Source: Diabrotica undecimpunctata
Taxonomy: Eukaryota; Arthropoda; Insecta; Coleoptera; Chrysomelidae
Direction: 5' to 3'
Assembly (NCBI RefSeq): GCF_040954645.1
Contig: NC_092807.1
Location: forward strand, 2,480,001 to 2,544,000
Length of the DNA stretch: 64,000 nucleotides
Positions 872-58,760 of this stretch are shown here, piece after piece; the first letter of the stretch is position 1, and each line of letters starts with the position of its first letter. The notes under the pieces were generated by a model. The model was given only the letters and a program-made list of their open reading frames with translations, was not told the DNA's origin and made no database searches. Made by a program: the position numbers and the translations under genes.

Positions 872-922
872 ACTAGTGATTTTGCACCTAACCATGCGAC
901 GGGAGATCCAATCAATTACATA

Positions 923-1428
923 TACAGGGTGAGTCATGAGGAACTTTACATACTTCTACCATATGTAGAGTCCCTCAGGGAGCATATCATGTGGCCACTA
1001 AAAAATGTCAACTCCTCTTCTTTATTAATTAACAGGGTGATTTGTGTAATTGACCATTTATTTCATTTTACTGTAGTGTTTATACGGCTCATTTGATTTT
1101 TTTAATTTTTGCATGATACAGTACACTACTATCAAGCATTCGACTGGTATTAGCTAAACTAAAAAATTCCAGGACTGGCTTTGGAAAAATTAATTTAGGG
1201 ATTCGTATTAAATATTACACCCTGTATATATTTTTTTTAAAATGCAATAAGTGATTTTCAAACTACATAAATAGCCAATGAAAACGACATATGCGACAAT
1301 GTTGTCGCACTTTTATTAAATTTTTACTGAACGATCAAATCTTACCAAAAATAGAACAACCATAATGAAGTATCAAATTATATGGTAATTAATTTAAACA
1401 AATGTTATAAATTTCAAACATTTTAATA
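923..1428 (+). repeat. Left terminal inverted repeat
   Basis: This arm is the reverse complement of 3084-3591 with very few differences by eye. Similarity stops abruptly near 1428, where the left side reads AATAATTG and the right arm, reversed, reads AATTAAAA. The arm is mostly non-coding AT-rich sequence. It contains ACAGGGTG at the outer edge and an ACACCCTGTATAT block near 1216, so an internal copy of the outer end lies inside the arm. Confidence 0.88.
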
Positions 1429-1587
1429 ATTGAAATGATAAACTGAGTCACTGCACAACAAAAAACAGTAACTACTAACAATAACGAAGAACAATTTAAA
1501 AAAAAACTCAAAATATATACATAGTTATGATAAACCCATAAATTAGAACTGGAAAAGATACAATAATGGTAACAAAATAAAAATAAT

Positions 1588-2635
1588 TCAAAATAGATTT
1601 TTGAAATGGAACCCTGCAGCCTGTACACATTTTTGTTGCTGAATTGTTAATTGACGTATTGAATTACGGATACTCTGGGGATCGTTTCTAATAGTATTAC
1701 AACAATGTATAATTCTATCAATTAATTGTTGTCGGTTATTAATATTCACTGCGTAAACTAGTTGCTTCAATCGTCCCCAAATATGGTAATCAACGGGATT
1801 AAAATCAGGGGATCTTGAAGGCCACGAAATAGGACCTGCACGTCCTATCCACCTGTTGCCATAAACATTATTGAGATGTCTCACTGCCAGTAAAAAGTGT
1901 AGGGGTGCCCCATCATGCTGAAAATACATCCCTCGGATAGCAACGTTCGCGTTGGCAAGCAAATTCGGCAAAATATTTTGTAGAAAGTTCAAATAGACCT
2001 GCCCTGTTAAAGGACCATCAAAAAAGTGAGGACCTACTAATTGGTTATTTATGACACCAATCCACACGTTAACCGAAAACCTTAACTGAGAACGACGTTC
2101 TCGAATAGCATGGGGATTTTCTTCTGCCCACACATGTGAATTTCGTGAATTATTTATCCCGTCTCTGGTAAATTGGGCTTCATCTGTAAATAGTGTCCTG
2201 TATAGCGTTGGTCGATTATTGTTAATCCATCTACAAAATTCCAACCTATCGATCTCATCTCCAGCATGTAGTCGCTGAACCATTTGAATGTGATATGGGT
2301 ATAGATTATTTGCTTTGTAAGACTCTACTTACTTTTGATTGAGTAACATTGAGTTCTCGACTTACTTGTCTAGTGCTTATTGTAGGGTTCATAGTAACGG
2401 CGTCCATAATGTCATCTTCCTGCGCTTCATCTACATGTCGCTCTGTTGTTCCACTAGGAAAAGTGCCATTTTCTCGCAAATAATTAAAAACTGACCCAAA
2501 TGTTGGATGACTGGGAGTTCGACGATTAGGAAATCTCCTGCGATATTCTCTACTAGCAGCCCTACCATTCCCATTACAGAATCCATAAACAAATATTATG
2601 TCTGCATATTCTGTGGTCGAAAACTGATGTGGCAT
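1588..2635 (-). pseudogene. DDE transposase with DUF4817-type HTH, one frameshift
   Basis: The protein starts MPHQFSTTEYADII at 2635. The first ~108 residues form a helix-turn-helix region like the DUF4817 domains of insect transposases (motifs RRRFPNRRTPSHPTF and RQVSRELNVTQSKVSRVL). A single-base shift near 2305 then breaks the frame. The reading resumes as LYPYHIQMVQRLHAGDEI and runs through the catalytic half: LFTDEAQFTRDG (first Asp), YFQHDGAP (second Asp) and SPDFNPVDYHIWG (third Asp). By hand count 40 residues separate the last two acidic residues. The end is AAGFHFKNLF. Apart from the one shift the gene is complete at about 349 residues, so this copy could have been mobilised recently. 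Confidence 0.85.
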
Positions 2636-3083
2636 TTTGAACGAAAGTAACAAAAGCTCTACCAAAACTAACACAATGTACTTAACGTAGATATGACAGA
2701 AGAAATATGTATTCTTGTACACATAAATAACAATTGATAATGACAATAATGACAATGGGTATAAAATATCAAGAAACGTCAAACGGTCAACGCCAACCTT
2801 CATTTTAAACTTTTTTAGATTTATTTTTATTTAGTACAGTTGATGCAATATATTATTATTTGACATAAAATTTTAATCATTTACAATCAACAAAAACTAA
2901 CACATACAAGAGGTTTGACTTTTTAATCAATTTAATTTATTATTTATCGAAAATAATGTCCAATACGATCTATGGGTAAAAATTTAAAATTGAAAAACAA
3001 TTGATTCTATCGTATAGATAATACAAAGTTACAGTAAAGATGTTAATTTTCTACGTATTAGATTATGTTGTAGGAACTCATTT

Positions 3084-3591
3084 TAATTAAAATGTTTGAA
3101 ATTTATAACATTTGTTTAAATTAATACCTTATAATTTGATACTTCATTATGGTTGTTCTACTTTTGGTAAGATTTGATCGTTCACTAAAAATTTAATAAA
3201 AGTGCGACAACATTGTCGCATATGTCGTTTTCATTGGCTATTTATGTAGTTTGAAAATCACTTATTGCATTTTAAAAAATATATATATACAGGGTGTAAT
3301 ATTTAATACGAATCCCTAAATTAATTTTTCCAAAGCCAGTCCTGGAATTTTTTAGTTTAGCTAATACCAGTCGAATGCTTGATAGTAGTGTACTGTATCA
3401 TGCAAAAATTAAAAAAATCAAATGAGCCGTATAAACACTACAGTAAAATGAAATAAATGGTCAATTACACAAATCACCCTGTTAATTAATAAAGAAGAGG
3501 AGTTGACATTTTTTAGTGGCCACATGATATGCTCCCTGAGGGACTCTACATATGGTAGAAGTATGTAAAGTTCCTCATGACTCACCCTGTA
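3084..3591 (-). repeat. Right terminal inverted repeat
   Basis: Mirror image of the left arm, ending CTCACCCTGTA followed by TA. It also carries the internal ATACAGGGTGTAATA block near 3288, opposite the one at about 1216. Transcripts crossing the whole element could fold into a hairpin of about 500 bp, a potential small-RNA source. Confidence 0.88.
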
Positions 3592-3637
3592 TAATCACTG
3601 TACTTAATTTTTTCTGTCTTCCTCCTATTTAAGGTTG

Positions 3638-8527: not shown

Positions 8528-8783
8528 TAGGACGACAACAGAATAATATTTTACTCTGTTGTACAACTTTCATAACAAATAAGTCACTTTTGGGGAGTCG
8601 CTGAACTTTTTGCCTAAAGTCGTCCATCCAATATCCATAAAAATCCAATTTTTAGGATCGACGAAATTTTTAAAAGAATTAAAAGTTAAATTTTTAAAAT
8701 AAAAAACTTCTTGCATGAAAGGGCCTTGCAGATAAATCCACAAGGAATCTACATTCCTGTATTTGGCTGTATACCATATATTA

Positions 8784-9205
8784 AAAAATTAATTAAAATC
8801 CTTTGTAAAAGGTATATATTTAAAAACCCAAACGGGCTGTATTAGACAAAACGTTTTCGGAATTCATTATTCCATCATCGGTGACCAACTGAAGTTGCTC
8901 AGTTGCTTCCATAAAGTCCTCGTAGACACACCGTCTCAGGACTTGCAACTTCAACGTGCAGTCATATGTCGCCATGTTACCTAATCCAACGGTAACTTTA
9001 ACATCCTAATTATTTATAAGATATAATGTCAAACAAATGTAACTAATTATTTGTTAACGGGTTTTTACCCATATATTTAGTGGCTACATTCATGTACTCC
9101 TAGACACCGATGATGGAATGATGTATTCCGAAAACGTTTTGTCTAACACAGCCCGTTTGGGTTTTTAAATATATACCTTTTACAAAGGATTTTAATTAAT
9201 TTTTT
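8784..9205. mobile_element. Non-autonomous foldback element with ~100 bp TIRs
   Basis: 8784-8883 is the reverse complement of 9105-9205 with a few mismatches. The arms contain AACCCAAACGGGCTGT and ACAAAACGTTTTCGGAAT, ending at CCATCATCGGTG. About 220 bp of unrelated sequence lies between them, with no coding potential. The inner arm reads ACCGATGATGGAAT, then ATTCCGAAAACG, then TTTTGTC. That layout echoes a hammerhead core (CUGAUGA, helix II, GAAA, cleavage triplet) but has C for U in the core and an extra U before helix II. Penelope-like elements carry inverted terminal repeats with hammerheads, so a relation is possible but unproven. Confidence 0.6.
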
Positions 9206-9770
9206 GCAGATAAATATTTTACAATCTGGCAGATAGTTATCTGAAGCATAGACATTTATTTATAAAATAAAATGTACCCGTCTTTTCACGTCAAATTATG
9301 TTGCGGTTTCTTATCTGTAAGATAAATGTAAAATTTATTTCGGAACATACTAATATTTAATTCATTGTCAAAGAAATCAAAATAATGTTTTAATATATCT
9401 TTTGATTATACAATTTGTGGTGTGCAGGAATAAATTAAATTATATAAAGAAAACTTTAATAATGAATAAAAAAATATTACATGTTTAATCATTCTTCTCA
9501 GGTTTTTCCACAACACTAAAATATTATATAAGGTTAGCTCAAATATCTTCAACTTTAACAAGTTCAGTAATATTTTCATTTAGCAATTCATCTTCAAAAT
9601 TATCTTTATTTTGATTTCCTAGGTTATACTCGTAAAATGTTGATGTAGATTAGAACGGTTGAATCTTTTCAACCTTACAGTCACTTCCACTGGATGAAGT
9701 CCCTAAACCTTCTCTTCTATACATAAAAAGTTATGTTGGATATCTGGTTCTAATATGAAATTCATTCATT

Positions 9771-9926
9771 CAGTCGCTCTGAACGTGAAAATAAATTTTT
9801 TCTGTCTTAGGAAGCAACTCTAACATGGCTTCGTATGGACGAAAATAGCGACATCTGATATTAAAATCCGTAAACTAATTTTTGAGACCAAACCAATTTT
9901 ATTTTCACGTTCAGAGCGACTGTGAC
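9771..9926. repeat. Inverted repeat linked to hammerhead unit
   Basis: The 25-30 bp around CAGTCGCTCTGAACGTGAAA (near 9771-9800) recurs inverted at 9898-9926. Reading 9780-9870 on the minus strand gives a sequence (ATATCAGATGTCGCTATT, then GTTGCTTCC, then AAGACAGAAAA) that matches the plus strand at 14971-15034, directly upstream of the hammerhead at 15058. So this locus holds one inverted partial copy and one direct copy of the same element, head to head. Confidence 0.7.
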
Positions 9927-9979
9927 TATCCGTTCTGAAGAGCCCTTTTAAGGCGAAATACGTATAAGCAGATACACAG
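9920..9979 (+). ncRNA. Type-I hammerhead ribozyme motif, copy 2
   Basis: The core CTGAAGA (9935-9941) fits CUGANGA. Helix II is GCC/GGC (9942-9944 with 9952-9954). GAAA is at 9955-9958. A very short helix III is followed by the cleavage triplet ATA (9964-9966). Helix I forms from flanking sequence: CCGTT (9930-9934) with AGCAG (9967-9971) by four pairs including one wobble and one mismatch, then an internal loop, then CTGTG (9920-9924) with CACAG (9975-9979). It is homologous to the motif at 15058, and the two differ by compensatory changes. The C-A mismatch in helix I suggests some decay. Such minimal type-I hammerheads are known from Penelope-like retroelements. Confidence 0.72.
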
Positions 9980-9999
9980 ACGCACTATACGTGAAATCA

Positions 10000-10950
10000 A
10001 ATCTTAACTGGCTTTTTCCTTTTATTCCGATATACTCTGTACGAGTACTAGAAACCAATTCGCTAAGGATTTTACTTAGTTGAAAAGATATGTTGTGGAA
10101 TGCAATTTCTAGATTCCCCATGTCTCTAATAACATTTTTATCAACGTCTGTTTTGCTTTGCAATTCTTAGAAGGCACAGATTAAAGCAAAAATCTGAATT
10201 TGGTTTCGAAAATTAGTTTACGGATTTTATTTACTTTTTCTTTTTTATTAAGTAATTCTAAAGTATTAATTTTTAAATATCTTATAAGTAATTATTTGTG
10301 ATGTGAATTTCAACACTGCCAAATACCAATATTGCGCACTGTCAAACTCATTTGAGTCTATCTTCACTGGGTCAAAATATATAAACTGTCCTAAAATCGT
10401 CATAAAATACCATCGAAAACAAGACTTTTTCAATATATTAATGTAGCGACAAAACACATTTTTAAATTGACAGCTTTAATAGGCTTTAATATTCCTTTAT
10501 AAAAATCGTAGATAATCTACGCCGCTGGCAATGGCTTCTGTTTCAAAGTTGATAGACTTAATTATAGGGTTTTATTCGTGATAGGATTAAGAGTTTCGTG
10601 ACAAAAAACACTTAAACGGTAGTTTGTGGGTTGGCGAAACTGGTAAGCCATTAAGGTAGTCACACACGAAGAAGTACATATTTTGCATACGATCATCAAC
10701 AAATTACGGAATATGATTCAAGGGGCGATAATACCTGATGTATTTACAAACTGAAATCAACGACATTTGAACAAGGTACAAGAAAGAGAAAGAGAGCGAG
10801 AAAGTGCTAAACAAACTTATCAACTTTTCAAAAAAAAACAGAAACAAAGATGCCGATCAATTAAAGACACTAAATTTATGAATTCCTTTTTCTGCTCTAT
10901 ATTTAGCTATTTTATTTACTTTTCTTTCGGATTGCCATTATATTGTAGGT
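10000..10950. other. No recognisable gene
   Basis: The direct hammerhead unit fades out by about 10020. The rest is AT-rich with short frames that match nothing I know. A purine-rich GAGAAAGAGAGCGAGAAAG run lies near 10780. Confidence 0.45.
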
Positions 10951-10956
10951 TTTTAT

Positions 10957-12671
10957 ATAGAATAGAATAGAATAGAATATTCTTTATTAATCCCATCAGA
11001 TCACATTGTGATATAGGACAAGTCATATAGTACATAAAGCATGATCAACAAGTTATATAGGACAATTACATAAAACAAAATCAATAAAATATAAAAAAAA
11101 AAAGATATGCGATATAGAGCGTCTCTGAACCCGTCGGTCCTCATTCCCTGTAGTTTTTTATTAAGTCAAAATAATCATTTAGGTTGTAAACGCATAATTG
11201 GATCAAGCATGCTTTTAATTTAGTTTTGAATTTTTGAATATTATTTTCATTTCTTATACATATTAAGTGGCAAACAATTGTAAAATTTAGATCCTGCAAA
11301 ATCAGGGCTAGTTTCAAAGAGAGTTGTGGAGTGTTTACACACACTTATCAACCTCCCGTGTCTTGTCGGGTAATTATGAAAGTCAGAGTTAAGGGTAAAA
11401 TTTTGAAATTTAGTTTTGACGTGAATAATACACTTATAAATATATAAAGCATGAAAACTCAACAGTCTGTGTTCAATAAAATATTTACGACATGATTGTC
11501 TATTATCAATATTGAATATCAATCTAAGAATTCTCTTTTGAGTTATAAAAACAGAAGAGTTTCTAGAGTTTCCCCACAAGACAACATTATAGGCCATATA
11601 TGAATAAACCAATGCATAATACACACTTATCAATTGATTGGTGTTAAATAGAGTTTTCAACTGAAGGATCGCATAGTAACCCTTATTCATTGTTTTGCAG
11701 ACTTTAGTGACATTTTCATCCCATGTCGTATTACTTTCTAGAATGCTACCAAGAAATAGTGTTGTATCACTAAAGGGTATTTCCTCAGAACTAACTGTGA
11801 TTTTATAACCATGGGATGGCTTACAGCACGAGTAGAACTGCATACAAATAGTTTTCTTTGCATTTACCATTAAAGAGTTCCTTTTACACCAGGTTGTAAA
11901 TTTTTGTGCTACTAAGTTCATTTTTGAAATAAGTTCGACTTCAGTTGACTCGTCAACTACAATTGTTGAATCATCTGCATAAAGAACTGTATGGTCTGCA
12001 GTTAAAAAATTTATCAAATCATTGACATATAGAAGAAATATTAAGGGTCCCAATACGGAGCCTTGCGGTACACCTTGATCAAGATTAAAAATAGATGACT
12101 TCTTATTATCGACTTTTACTAGGAATTTACGATGTTGTAAGTATGACCTTAACCAGTTCAAGAAATGACCCCGAAAACCAAGGGCTTCTAATTTATGTAG
12201 TATAATTTCAATGTCAATAGAGTCAAAAGCCTTAGTTAAGTCAAAAAAGAGTGCACCCACATACCTTTTCCGATCCAAAGCAGCGTGGATATAATTAAAT
12301 AATGAAATAGAAGCACTCTCTATAGATTTATTAGGAAGAAACCCATGCTGGCATTTATTTAAGATATCATATTTATTCAGAAAATTTAACATTTTACTGT
12401 AAATACACTTTTCGATAATCTTAGAGAGTACACTTGTTACGGTGATTGGCCTGTAATTATCAACCAAACATGGATCTCCCTTTTTGAAAATTGGACTAAC
12501 TACTCCCGTTTTAAGGTCACTTGGAAACTTGCCATCCTTGATAGATAGGTTGATGATGTGAGACAGAACAGGAGATATATATGAAGAAATGTATTTAATT
12601 ACTTTAGTGGGGATTTGATTAATACCTACTGAGCTGGTAGAAATCAAATGGTCACTCCCGGAGTGCCACAT
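10957..12671 (-). mobile_element. 5'-truncated Jockey/CR1-type LINE
   Basis: The element runs on the minus strand and its 3' end is marked by a pentanucleotide repeat (ATAGA units, 10957-10978) next to a short 3' untranslated region containing TTTATTAATCCCATCAGATC. Pentamer 3' tails of the ATTCT type are typical of CR1- and Daphne-like LINEs. The 5' side stops around 12640-12671 just upstream of the RT domain, so ORF1 and the endonuclease are lost. I found no convincing target-site duplication. Confidence 0.8.
11141..12671 (-). pseudogene. Reverse transcriptase (Jockey/CR1-like), nearly intact RT domain
   Basis: A long open frame (11247-12671, 474 codons) covers the RT and thumb. It begins near VGINQIPTKVIKYISSY, then VSPIFKKGD, NYRPITVTSVLSKIIEKCIY, QHGFLPNKSIESASISLF, GALFFDLTKAFDSIDIEIIL, LDQGVPQGSVLGPLIFLLYV and the catalytic LYADDSTIV. 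The end of the frame is FAGSKFYNCLPLNMYKK. A one-base shift there is followed in the next frame by NENNIQKFKTKLKACLIQL to 11141, which looks like the original C-terminus. All RT catalytic aspartates are present. The methionine at 12671 is a chance start in a truncated gene. Confidence 0.87.
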
Positions 12672-13039
12672 CCCGTTTTTTTACACACTTTTTCTTTATA
12701 CATGCATGAATAGTTCATATTCCGATTCATTTTTTTTTTTTTTTATTTTGGAGCTACATACACTTTTTTTATTTTTCCATATTTTTAATACTATACAATG
12801 CCGGTTTTACGAACACCTTACCATGTCAGTTGGCCTAATGTTAGATTGAAAAGAAAACTAAGTTTTAATGAACAAAAACAAAAGTAAGAGTAAAAGTCCA
12901 GAGTAAACTTTAAAAGTTTTAATTCGTCGAGCATTTTTGGATTTCCATAATTATAGAAAATATTTTTTAAATTAATCAAAATGGTTAATTAAACAGAATA
13001 ACAACAACGCGTAGAATATTTAATATTACAAAAAGAAAT

Positions 13040-13640
13040 ATGAAACTTTACCATGGAGTCACATCATCTTTTATTTTTAATTATATCCAAAATTCTTCGT
13101 GGCATAGTTTTTAACAAGTACTGGCAAAATTCTGCTGTAAATGAATCAAGTATTTCTTGCAATTTTTGCTTAAATTCGTTGACGGGCCTGGCAGGATATT
13201 TCCTCAATACTTTTTTTATTTCGCGTCACAAATTTCTATTGGTGACTGTTGGAAACCCAGTCCAGAACTTGTATACTGTAGAATTTAATCCATTTTAAAC
13301 TATTTTTTGGGTATGACAACCTGCGCCGTCCTGTTGGAAGACAAAATCTTCCGCTGATGTTAAACAGTGTTTCATAATCGGTAAAAGAGATTCTTTTAAA
13401 ATATTCAAATATTTGTCCGTATCTACATTCCCATCGATAAAATGTAACTTTCCCACACCTTTAGACGACATGCTGCCCCAGATCATGACAAATGCAAGAA
13501 ATTTGACTTTTCTCTTCAGACAGTCGGGATGGAAAGCTTTATTTTTCCTGCGAATGATGCGACTCCTACTGTCTCCAATACACACTTCAAATCTTAACTC
13601 ATTACTTCATTATATGTGGCATCTCTTAGTAAATGTGTCC
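13040..13640 (-). pseudogene. Tc1-like transposase fragment
   Basis: The open part (13295-13585) contains IGDSRSRIIRRKNKAFHPDC, FVMIWGSMSSKGVGKLHF and VFQQDGAGCHTQ, which hold the second catalytic Asp of a Tc1-type DDE domain. Continuing on the minus strand through shifts, SSGLGFQQSPIEICD corresponds to a decayed SPDLNPIEN box. The C-terminal PRRILDIIKNKR resembles the usual Tc1 end. No terminal repeats were found, and the first catalytic Asp region is missing. It is a dead relic. Confidence 0.72.
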
Positions 13641-13649
13641 TAATGCTCT

Positions 13650-14960
13650 TCTGACCATTTTTACCTATTTACCTAAATTTCATAGGGGGGCCAAATAAAT
13701 AGCTGTTATCTACATGCGTCACAATATCTAAAAAAGCTAATGGAAACATTGTTCCAATCATCGAATGATTTCGTAATGAGTCATTTGCTCAAGATTATCT
13801 CAATATCAATTACATTCGCATCTACCGGAAGCTGAAACTTAAATATTAGCAATACACAGTGAGGATTCATATAACAGTTAGACACTAGAGAGGCCCTATT
13901 TGCTCTAAATTAACTTACACAGTGACGCTTAGATGTTAATCAAGAGATGCGCAACGATTTCACATACTCTAAAAAGGCTTTCATCTGGATACACTGCGAA
14001 TCGTTCAAAAAAATTATTGCAATAAAAGGTACTGACGATAAAGAGCTGCAAATCAATCTAAATTTATATTCGAATTGGAAATCATTGATCACAGAATTGA
14101 CAGGTTTTAGTAGATATGCCAAAACAATAAACAAAATATTAGAAAATAAGACGAAGAAGACACAAGGATAAAATTTTATAAGGAAAAAAAGAAACCTACA
14201 TACCTATTCTATTATATTGACACAAATATAATAATATACCTCTATACCTTTTAGAACCCAAACTAACAAAACGAGATTTCTCAAAAGGGTGAAATGCATT
14301 ACCACAGTTTACAGAAACATAACTGAAGACATTTCTGAATATTTAGTCAACAAATGTTTCATCCATCAAAATATAAACAAAAAAATTATTAAAGAAAACA
14401 GCTTGAACAAATGGGAAATTAGCTTAATGTCAGCAAACGTTCCTCTAGGAGCCATACTAGTAATCTATTATTCTTCTATATACTAGTATTCTTGTATAAA
14501 AAACTCTCTTTTCGTAGAGTTCTTGAAGTATCTGCATATTAAAGGAATAAAACTTATGTGTTTTGAGTGTCTTTCTCACAATCTGACATAACTTTACCGC
14601 TTGTTCTGCTTCTGTTTCTTAGGAGCTGGTGAGCTCTGTAACAAATGTTCCCAAAACTTTTTTTTGAGCTTCCACATCCACATTTGGTACTCGCCGGTTG
14701 TTACTTCTTTTATTTACTACCGAACCGATATTGGAGAACTTTATTGGTTTAACACCAAATTAATAATGTACCTGTGGCCTACACCACGATTTGGATTTAG
14801 TGGAAGAAGTGCCTTCCCTTGTACACACTTCTCAATCTTTATTTACATTCCATAGAGAGAATTCCATACATAAAATTTACAAAAGCATCTTTATTAAAAG
14901 AAAGTTTATTATTAGGTTATTTTTAGATTATGTTTTTAATTATGTATTAACTGTATTAAT
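13650..14960. other. No recognisable gene
   Basis: Several frames of 60-85 codons lie here (for example 13947-14171 and 14289-14486) but none carries a motif I can name. SANVPLGAILVIYY near 14430 weakly recalls a GVPQGAIL box of a reverse transcriptase, without supporting neighbours. I leave the stretch unassigned. Confidence 0.4.
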
Positions 14961-14967
14961 TATTATT

Positions 14968-15160
14968 AATATCAGATGTCGCTATTGCGTCCGTTTCGAA
15001 GCCATTTTATCGTTGCTTCCCAAAGACAGAAAAGATTAATTTTCACGTTGAGAACGCCTATGAATAACTGTTCTGATGAGCTTTATTAAAGCGAAATACG
15101 TATCAACAGATACATAGTCGATTTGTACGTGAAATGAAATCTTGACTGTCTTTTTAATTT
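14968..15160 (+). repeat. Hammerhead-bearing repeat unit, copy 1
   Basis: This unit (ATATCAGATGTCGCTATT, GAAGCCAT, GTTGCTTCC, AAGACAGAAAA, TTTTCACGTT, the ribozyme motif, TACGTGAAAT, AATCTTGACTG) is shared with 9780-10020, where it exists as a direct and an inverted partial copy. It is non-coding. The shared sequence extends past the ribozyme on both sides, so the ribozyme is one part of a larger mobile unit. I cannot assign it to a named family. Confidence 0.7.
15058..15117 (+). ncRNA. Type-I hammerhead ribozyme motif, copy 1
   Basis: The catalytic core is complete: CTGATGA (15073-15079), helix II GCTTT/AAAGC with an ATT loop (15080-15092), GAAA (15093-15096), a minimal helix III around a four-base loop, and the cleavage triplet ATC (15102-15104). 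Helix I pairs CTGTT (15068-15072) perfectly with AACAG (15105-15109). After an AATAA/ATA internal loop, CTATG (15058-15062) pairs perfectly with CATAG (15113-15117). Open helix I with a very short helix III is the layout described for hammerheads of Penelope-like elements. Cleavage is predicted after 15104. Activity is inferred, not shown. Confidence 0.82.
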
Positions 15161-15164
15161 TATT

Positions 15165-15875
15165 TTTAATTATTATCTCTTTCAAATGCAATTTTTTGAC
15201 AACCGCTGAGTAAAAAATAATGAATTATAACCCATTGGACAGAAAATTAAATGCTCTTTAACAAATGTGCTATTTAATCCTGTTCCATTTAAAATTGTAA
15301 GGGTAACCCTTGCGCAAAGGTTGAACGCTAGGGGTTAAAAATATTCACTGAAAATGACTCCATTTAAGACAAAAACTTACCTGTAAATATGATATGTATA
15401 CATACATGAAATCTTTTGGCATTCACAGTTATCTACCATTTATTGGACGATTTCTATGTACACATCCACATCGCCTACATAAACGACTTTCATCATAAAA
15501 CAGTCATCTAACAGTTCCTTAGTTTTTAACGCCAATATCAATTCCGTAATTAGAATGAACTTATTTACATTTCCCATAAAAATTTCGTTATCTTCGATTT
15601 AGAATATAAAAAAGACGATTTTACAGTATAGTTATTGAGGGTCATCAAAATTCCATCAATCTATTTTATAGCACCACAAATATTTTAGAATTTATAAACG
15701 ATTGATATGTGAGAGATATAAATAAGTGCAAACTAAAAAAAAGATATAAATATGTATTTTTTTAATCGCTTTGGGTCAGACTAATTTAGATGTTCTCTAG
15801 TGGAATGGATGTTAATGAAGTGTGTTGAACGAATGTATATGTAATAGTGGAAATAATATATTTTTGTATCATCAT
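15165..15875. other. No recognisable gene
   Basis: AT-rich sequence without long frames or transposon ends. It ends at the possible target-site duplication CTTTGAAT of the next LINE. Confidence 0.5.
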
Positions 15876-57620: not shown

Positions 57621-57887
57621 GTATTTAGTTAGACATAAATATGATATACCTACTTGCCAATATATACTCATTTTCATGCAGGTTTTAGAATCTAGATTCA
57701 AAAAATTTTTCTTTCATAAATTATATAAGTAGACACCTATTAATTAAAAAACTAATTAATATTAATAAGTAACAGTGTTTAAGCAAAATAAACCCCCTTC
57801 GGCATTCCAGGAAGTCCAAGTCCCTCTCGGAATGATACCGACTTATTTGAAGCTGTCAAGAAAGAATCCTAACCTATAATTACCTAC

Positions 57888-58446
57888 CTGAGTTCATGTT
57901 GGGAACCCCGAAAGGTGCGGCGCCTTGGAACATGGGCCCAGGTCCTCCGAACGGGTTCACCAGTCCTTGATGGGACCAGTTAGGATGCGCGGCCTGGTAC
58001 ACTGCTGCCGCAAGAGCCGAAAAAGGCGTCGGCCGGATGGGACCTTGGCTCAGTAGCGAATCTTTGGAAAAGTCTCTTTCGCGGGTGTCTCTTTGAGAGA
58101 GATAATCGCTCTCTTTCGACGGAGAGTCTTCTATTTTGCTCTCGGCGTTTAGATCTTCCACGTCCACTATGGAATCTTCTTGGTTGGAGTCGTATTCATC
58201 GTCGGAAGAGTGATGCGTCGGGCTGGATGACGGGATGGTGGATGAATTAGGCGACACTGACTTGGAAGGCCTCGTGTCGGCCAAGAGGGAAGCTACACTA
58301 AAACTAATATGTCCGTTTTTAGCCGACTGAGCATCGTTAGTTGCTTTGTCGCTAATATTTTGCATAGTTTCACCGTTCTTAGCGTCTAAGGTATCCAAAT
58401 TTTGGACAGTCATTATTTGGGCACTGTCGAGAGGGTTTTTTAGCAT
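57888..58446 (-). CDS. First coding exon of an Msx/msh (Drop)-type homeobox gene
   Basis: The exon starts MLKNPLDSAQIMTVQNLDTL at 58446 and is open for 186 codons and one base to a consensus donor CAG/GTAGGT at 57888/57887. HISFSVASLLADTRPSK (about residues 46-62) matches the conserved N-terminal FSV-LLAD motif of Msx/msh proteins, an eh1-like repressor motif known to recruit Groucho. A Ser-rich acidic middle (SSDDEYDSNQEDSIVDVEDL) follows. RPTPFSALAAAVYQA (about 138-152), then Pro/Gly/Phe-rich sequence, is like the region before the homeodomain. The homeodomain must be on a downstream exon, outside the window or beyond recognisable sequence. The gene would encode a DNA-binding repressor of neural and muscle patterning. 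msh orthology is from memory; another NK-like class gene is the main alternative. Confidence 0.7.
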
Positions 58447-58760
58447 AAGTCAAACTAGGGAATAAAGGACACCACTGTCACGTAAACATAAGAACCAGAA
58501 AAACACGTTATACACTTCATTTAGATATAATATTATATAATAACCGACTTATACCCAAAGGTGTTCAGGTTAAACTGATGAGAGAACTGTTTACAGTTAA
58601 TATCAGCGATGAGGCGGGGCTTTTAGGGGCGGCTCGCTTAGTCCCGCCTAGCGTTTAACTGCGTTATTAAGCAAATCAACCAATCACCGCCGGTTGTCCT
58701 TAACTACAAGCCAGCGGCTCAAGCGAATAGTCGACTCTCTCACATTTTCCCCCTACAGCA
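58447..58760 (-). promoter_or_regulatory. 5' UTR and promoter region of the Msx-like gene
   Basis: Upstream of the exon, a GC-rich patch (58608-58650) has GC-box-like GGCGGGGC and GGGGCGGC, unlike the AT-rich setting. A CCAAT box (AACCAATCACC) lies near 58678-58688, and an AT-rich TATATTATATAA-like element is at about 58526-58543 on the minus strand. The transcription start is not defined. The patch continues to about 58760. Confidence 0.5.

Follow-up and report, generated by a model that had tools for sequence, protein, structure and literature searches.

Two hammerhead motifs in a Diabrotica undecimpunctata contig belong to a tandem and inverted repeat probably spread by Penelope-type retrotransposition

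The window analysed here, a stretch of 64,000 nucleotides from Diabrotica undecimpunctata (NC_092807.1; C5:2480001-2544000 of the 1.743-Gb assembly), contains two type I hammerhead ribozyme motifs on its plus strand, copy 1 at 9920–9979 and copy 2 at 15058–15117. We found that each motif belongs to a different subfamily of one approximately 400-bp tandem and inverted repeat with thousands of copies in the genome, which an earlier sequence-only reading of the window, correct in the positions of both motifs, had missed. The RNA of the repeat unit is predicted to form a type I hammerhead ribozyme, and we propose, at a probability of about 0.6, that the repeat was spread by Penelope-type retrotransposition, with RNA copied onto each strand at a staggered cut. 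The family fits non-autonomous hammerhead elements (the animal ‘retrozymes’) that use Penelope-like machinery, and we consider it non-autonomous because a reverse transcriptase gene would not fit into its full-length copies.

Both motifs carry the complete type I core that the sequence-only reading had described, with CTGANGA, GAAA and H17, and with A15.1–U16.1 present. Helix II is closed by G-C in both, and helix I contains an internal loop. In copy 2, helices I and II have 5 bp each and helix III has 2 bp and a palindromic tetraloop, helix I being open and helices II and III closed. The minimal helix III noted earlier was borne out in both motifs, where it consists only of A-U and U-A with the tetraloop ACGU. 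H17 is A9966 in copy 1 and C15104 in copy 2; the predicted cleavage of copy 2 falls after C15104, as had been anticipated, and that of copy 1 would fall after A9966. Copy 1 also has two C-A mismatches, located in proximal helix I and in helix II, and one G-U, all of which the earlier reading had omitted. Because the C-A pairs of window copy 1 are mostly C-G across its subfamily, this copy is probably decaying. Apart from these two, a 60-nt covariance model detected no copy of the motif in the window (next best match, E 1.5).

A search for the full pattern of core, helix II, short helix III and helix I returned two matches in the window, whereas 100 Markov-1 random windows of equal length gave none, which argues against a chance hammerhead look-alike within an interspersed repeat. 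That explanation, which we find barely credible, could draw on the low Rfam scores and on the conservation of the motif. Neither segment matched an Rfam hammerhead family at gathering score; copy 2 gave weak matches to Hammerhead_3 (17.8 bits, cut-off 48.5) and RAGATH-1-hammerhead (15.3 bits, cut-off 56.3), and copy 1 reached no Rfam hammerhead family, even among weaker matches. Between the window copies, the motif (48 of 60 positions identical) is not better conserved than its flanks (55 of 69). The low scores likely come from the very short helix III (A-U, U-A, loop ACGU), and our assignment to type I hammerheads, made at the level of sequence, follows core, topology and covariation rather than Rfam score.

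Both compensatory changes proposed by the sequence-only reading are real. In distal helix I, G-C at 9922/9977 of copy 1 corresponds to A-T at 15060/15115 of copy 2, and in helix II, C-G at 9944/9952 corresponds to T-A at 15082/15090. The window copies differ at 26 of 129 ungapped positions and have two pairs altered on both sides, compared with 0.16 expected for substitutions placed at random (P = 0.009); in a pair counter, by contrast with this, the covariation between the two copies was reached by 123 of 500 shuffles. Two sequences are too few to bear the claim that such drift is strong evidence for selected structure; with 27 copies, covariation of the helices is supported. This larger set comprises 27 distinct hammerheads (28 rows, one duplicate), including window copy 1 as L039, and was picked with a pattern that required the core and helix III letters, so that identity in the core and the invariance of helix III among the collected copies are by construction. 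Among the 27 genomic copies, 5 of 15 pairs are double-changed: two of these belong to distal helix I, where one change is confined to one copy, two to helix II and one to proximal helix I. Pairing holds in 95.1% of 405 cells, and double-changed cells number 26 against a shuffle mean of 8.4 (reached by none of 500 shuffles) and 0–6 when the partners were slid. Of the other measures, the count of double-changed pairs was less striking, with 62 of 500 shuffles at least as high, and the count of pair types was not striking at all (321 of 500).

A third subfamily, from the centre of an array on contig C1, contributes another double-changed pair to proximal helix I. When one copy from each of the three subfamilies is aligned, all five double changes fall within helices I and II of the hammerhead, the arms that extend helix I having none, a distribution that is hard to square with a chance look-alike, and eight of the nine pairs broken in at least one copy are in the extended arms. 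In copy 2 these arms, recognized by complementarity and fold, add 15022–15057 on the 5′ side and 15118–15153 on the 3′ side (both plus strand); with the adjoining helix they span 44 nt each (15022–15065/15110–15153), are 75% complementary and fold with a z score of −3.3. We do not claim them as selected, despite their good folding, because double changes are absent from them both between the window copies and in the three-subfamily alignment. The view of the two segments as paralogous type I hammerhead motifs with covarying helices is supported.

The core of copy 2, at up to one mismatch, occurs at 2,897 places in the genome (1,468 on the plus and 1,429 on the minus strand), and a reversed control pattern occurs at none. 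A 111-base copy 2 query, with 40 of 1,680 first-look candidates scored, gave 41 places, nearly all 98–99% identical over the full length and several spaced by 406, 393 or 405 bp. The copy 1 query, with 40 of 3,492 candidates scored, gave 47 places, the best others being mostly 94–96% identical. From these we took a sample of 20 copy-2-type loci (L019–L038), which was hand-picked from the 41 places with tandem and inverted copies first and is not random, and a sample of 20 copy-1-type loci (L059–L078) chosen from the 47. The unit is 406 bp long; its positions 1–199 correspond to window 14967–15165, and positions 200–406 follow in tandem copies. Copies of 1.75 units, 705–711 bp in length, recur (L020, L021, L023, L028 and L032). 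A less selected view came from the first 100 of the 2,897 core places, all on contig C1 and without mismatch, which form 44 clusters, 18 single, 12 same-strand and 14 mixed-strand; among neighbours within 2 kb, 42 are on the same strand, with a modal spacing of 400.

Within the window, copy 2 is a solo insertion of unit 1–199 (14967–15165, plus strand), flanked by an 11-bp target site duplication, TTAATTATTAT, at 14956–14966 and 15166–15176. Random placements gave a duplication of at least 11 bp in 1 of 2,000 cases at a slack of 3 and in 11 of 2,000 at a slack of 25, and the boundaries 1–199 recur in many blastn matches to fetched genomic copies at 96–100% identity. Copy 1 is a head-to-head composite of an inverted arm (9764–9892, minus strand), which by alignment to the 406-bp unit covers approximately 377–406 and 1–95 and has no hammerhead core, and a direct arm (9898–10229, plus strand), which contains the motif, covers approximately unit 70–406 and is 81% identical to the copy-2-type unit. 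We also considered that the inverted repeat 9862–9892/10199–10229 might form the termini of a small DNA transposon into which copy 1 had inserted with a 9-bp duplication, AAACCAATT, and rejected this candidate because genomic copies show that both stretches belong to the unit. The hammerhead-to-3′-end part of the two window copies, the part that was translated, contains stops in all three sense frames.

The head-to-head arrangement is common in the family. Ten of the 20 copy-2-type loci have a minus arm on the left and a plus arm on the right (L021, L022, L024, L025, L027, L028, L029, L031, L035 and L036; a 19-bp minus fragment about 320 bp past the end of L027 is not counted). Eight of the ten (L024 doubtful) have a direct repeat around the entire composite, and therefore both arms entered together. 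The copy-1-type loci are likewise head-to-head in 10 of 20 cases and plus-then-minus in none, and on C1 all 14 mixed clusters run minus-then-plus, with 14 ‘−+’ and 0 ‘+−’ neighbours within 2 kb. The largest mixed arrays on C1 consist of four minus and four plus units and of three minus and six plus units; at the centre of the four-plus-four array, the arms mirror each other without mismatch except in a short middle. The sequence beside the large palindromic array at C1:35365858 (L095, 250–601) presumably resembles a cytochrome P450 exon.

Insert ends were compared for 33 arms in the 20 copy-2-type loci, arms under approximately 60 bp being dropped. The 3′ end falls at unit 196–205 in 18 of the 20 loci (exceptions, L019 and L026), a second cluster of 3′ ends lies at unit 400–7 (10 of 33 arms), and the 5′ end falls at unit 304–308 in 10 of 20 loci. 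Both preferred 3′ ends adjoin a similar stretch, ATTTTTATTCGGAT at unit 196–210 and ATTTTACGGATT at unit 395–406, which is perhaps a start signal for reverse transcription. Outer direct repeats of at least 9 bp (9–14 bp) are present at 13 of the 20 loci and of 12–14 bp at 9 of 20, compared with 9 bp in 0.5% of 600 random placements and at least 10 bp in none of the 600. Among the 13, the 9-bp repeats of L024 and L033 are doubtful, their left copy lying within the A/T-rich end of the element itself, and L022, for which two outer boundaries were tried and only the wider gives 9 bp, was scored as a miss. Had the family been ordinary satellite DNA, with arrays spread by recombination and inversion and the hammerhead a passive relic, runs of up to six same-strand units in succession, as the listed C1 clusters contain, would be expected; solo and 1.75-unit insertions with 9–14-bp flanking repeats and recurrent ends, the single polarity of all 14 mixed clusters and the covarying helices all speak against such an origin, which we regard as very improbable.

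These data allow us to propose how the copies may arise. RNA of one or more units would start near unit 305, and reverse transcription primed at the cut would begin inside this RNA, near unit 202. Copying from the other strand would use either that RNA again or a further one, and such both-strand copying would yield composites in which the two 5′ ends meet mid-insert and the duplication flanks the whole. The template would be uncleaved or re-joined RNA, a circle or an oligomer, that crosses the hammerhead site after unit 138. Tandem copies are unbroken across this predicted site and the recurrent 3′ end lies approximately 64 positions downstream of it, which argues against a mere cleaved 3′ end as the reverse-transcribed RNA. 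The role of the hammerhead would be to cut long transcripts down to units, and dimers would probably be the acting form, given that helix III is so short. Dimer co-folding fails to set the motif apart from shuffles: folded as a dimer without constraint, copy 1 forms a double hammerhead, with an equal gain in 10 of 60 shuffles, and copy 2 does not, with an equal gain in 30 of 60.

The main rival to this mechanism is twin priming of the type used by long interspersed nuclear elements (LINEs), in which a tandem-unit RNA would be mobilized by a LINE of the genome, internal priming on the second strand would invert the 5′ part, and the tandem units would make the two arms look alike. RVT_1 frames without a GIY-YIG match are present in the window, and the inverted arms of L027, L029 and L035 start at 304–308, as an RNA 5′ end should under twin priming; in L021, L024 and L028, however, it is the direct arm, not the inverted one, that starts there. 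The 3′ end lies inside the repeat, the two arms of the array at C1:35365858 are identical around its centre, and no LINE with a matching 3′ end turned up, although no search aimed at LINEs was made. On balance, we consider LINE-type twin priming unlikely.

The nature of the template can be approached separately. Reverse transcription around a ligated circle of the hammerhead monomer has been proposed as the source of tandem arrays for animal retrozymes. Under such a route, the hammerhead would excise an approximately 400-nt monomer, a host ligase would close it and reverse transcription around it would generate the arrays, a scheme compatible with Penelope-type integration. The tandem period and the modal spacing agree with it, the unit folded as a circle is well paired (z −3.5, 40 shuffles), and three unit pieces of L026 have four private variants in common, two of them a fifth, which favours repeated copying of a single template. 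A recurrent 5′ end at 304–308 is unexpected from an endless template and favours a linear RNA. The mean divergence of units is 1.16% inside a single arm (25 pairs), 1.05% for the two arms of an insert (22 pairs) and 1.39% when units of different loci are compared (1,174 pairs; P = 0.02 in a permutation test that pooled the pieces of each locus). Units in one arm thus still differ from each other, although these figures weigh little either way between a circular and a linear template. The circle route alone leaves the inversions unexplained. We regard it as a possibility somewhat short of even odds. With similar reserve, we advance the tentative generalization that animal retrozymes are satellites of Penelope-like elements, whose enzyme would use an uncleaved, linear RNA of several units, starting at a defined 5′ end, as the template at both strands of a break and so leave polarized palindromic arrays, the circle being a by-product and not the template.

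The repeat looks like an animal retrozyme in most of the features tested, including its 406-bp unit, low GC content (0.34 for the 199-bp copy 2) and duplications longer than 4 bp. Available descriptions of animal non-long-terminal-repeat (non-LTR) retrozymes (PMC7229834; PMC7761336) likewise report type I hammerheads in short (150–450 bp), low-GC, many-copy tandem repeats, target duplications of more than 4 bp and a well-paired unit RNA. Unlike those elements, half of the loci sampled here are head-to-head composites with recurrent ends, of which the text available from the two papers makes no mention. In the hammerheads of newt and axolotl satellites, as far as PMC7229834 and PMC6155905 describe them, a very short helix III with a palindromic tetraloop is also present and works as a dimer; the host is different, inverted arrays do not figure in those descriptions, and dimer action of the present motifs is a prediction.

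Likeness extends to Penelope-like elements and their pseudo-LTRs (pLTRs), for which the parts of PMC3846280 and PMC11167929 that we draw on describe head-to-head inverted terminal repeats, partial tandems, duplications of similar size, a hammerhead in the repeat and an internal start of reverse transcription. More specifically, head-to-head inverted pLTRs, partial tandems and 8–10-bp duplications are reported in PMC3846280, where self-priming appears as the preferred account of such palindromes, and according to PMC11167929 one Penelope-like protein in vitro cleaves and extends both DNA strands and starts reverse transcription internally, hammerhead cleavage being dispensable. Unlike Penelope-like elements, full-length copies here are 705–711 bp of unit sequence, with no room for a reverse transcriptase and GIY-YIG frame (an approximately 720-bp stretch inside L022 aside). 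The repeat is thus not an autonomous Penelope-like element, yet its copies are laid down as those elements are.

A candidate helper was sought among the Penelope-like elements of this genome, whose domain set is a reverse transcriptase followed by GIY-YIG. Among 150 scored of 6,687 candidates, GIY-YIG frames were found above cut-off at 73 places. The 605-amino-acid frame of L079 combines a reverse transcriptase domain that scores 29.0 bits, slightly short of the 29.6 cut-off, with a subsequent GIY-YIG domain of 27.6 bits (cut-off 22.6); the frame lies in L079 1267–3966, where it is flanked by 370-nt inverted repeats (99%) beside AT-rich microsatellites. In L089, at about 1193 on the minus strand, a second, different hammerhead-like motif occurs approximately 1.2 kb downstream of a GIY-YIG domain in antisense orientation, with no such motif in 405,640 shuffled bases.

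Several results count against Penelope-type spread of the repeat. No helper was found, none of the 14 sampled Penelope-like loci sharing sequence with the unit or carrying a sense-strand hammerhead; 12 of the 14 were read only approximately 1.7 kb downstream from the endonuclease domain, and many are close relatives from few subfamilies. Because these loci share no sequence with the unit, the link to Penelope-like elements rests on structure. In L079 the inverted repeat is on the 3′ side and not on the expected side. Only one arm has its 3′ end near unit 202 in most composites; no target duplication was found around window copy 1; and among copy-1-type loci, repeats of at least 10 bp near the outer ends occur in only 6 of 20, some of them simple-sequence (null, 1 of 600). 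LINE twin priming would also yield the minus-then-plus order and the flanking duplications.

Animal hammerhead repeats show no sequence motif that would reveal the enzyme that spreads them, according to the available text of PMC7761336, and Penelope-like elements are named as a strong candidate in that of PMC7229834. With the present repeat, the question of which enzyme this is becomes testable in one genome through an integration footprint of polarity, recurrent ends and composite-flanking duplications, and the recurrent 5′ end bears on whether a circle or an uncleaved RNA is copied. Among the papers listed by a literature search, judged by titles, abstract openings and term counts, none was seen to connect retrozymes to arrays of head-to-head form.

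Other scans concerned the motif more widely and the remainder of the window. In viral and prokaryote contigs, the motif pattern gave either no matches or 10 short viral matches, none of which had an upstream CTGANGA. The Rfam searches otherwise returned only sub-threshold hammerhead, microRNA-like or chance-level matches. A DNA transposon at 921–3593 has terminal inverted repeats of approximately 500 bp, the outer 318 bp being 99% complementary, and encloses minus-strand frames that match DUF4817 (38.3 bits, cut-off 22.6) and DDE_3 (26.4 bits, cut-off 28.6). The frame at 57880–58449 is one that we take to resemble an insect muscle segment homeobox protein, and a foldback-like repeat at 8783–9205 has 101-nt arms that are 97% complementary and 221 nt apart.

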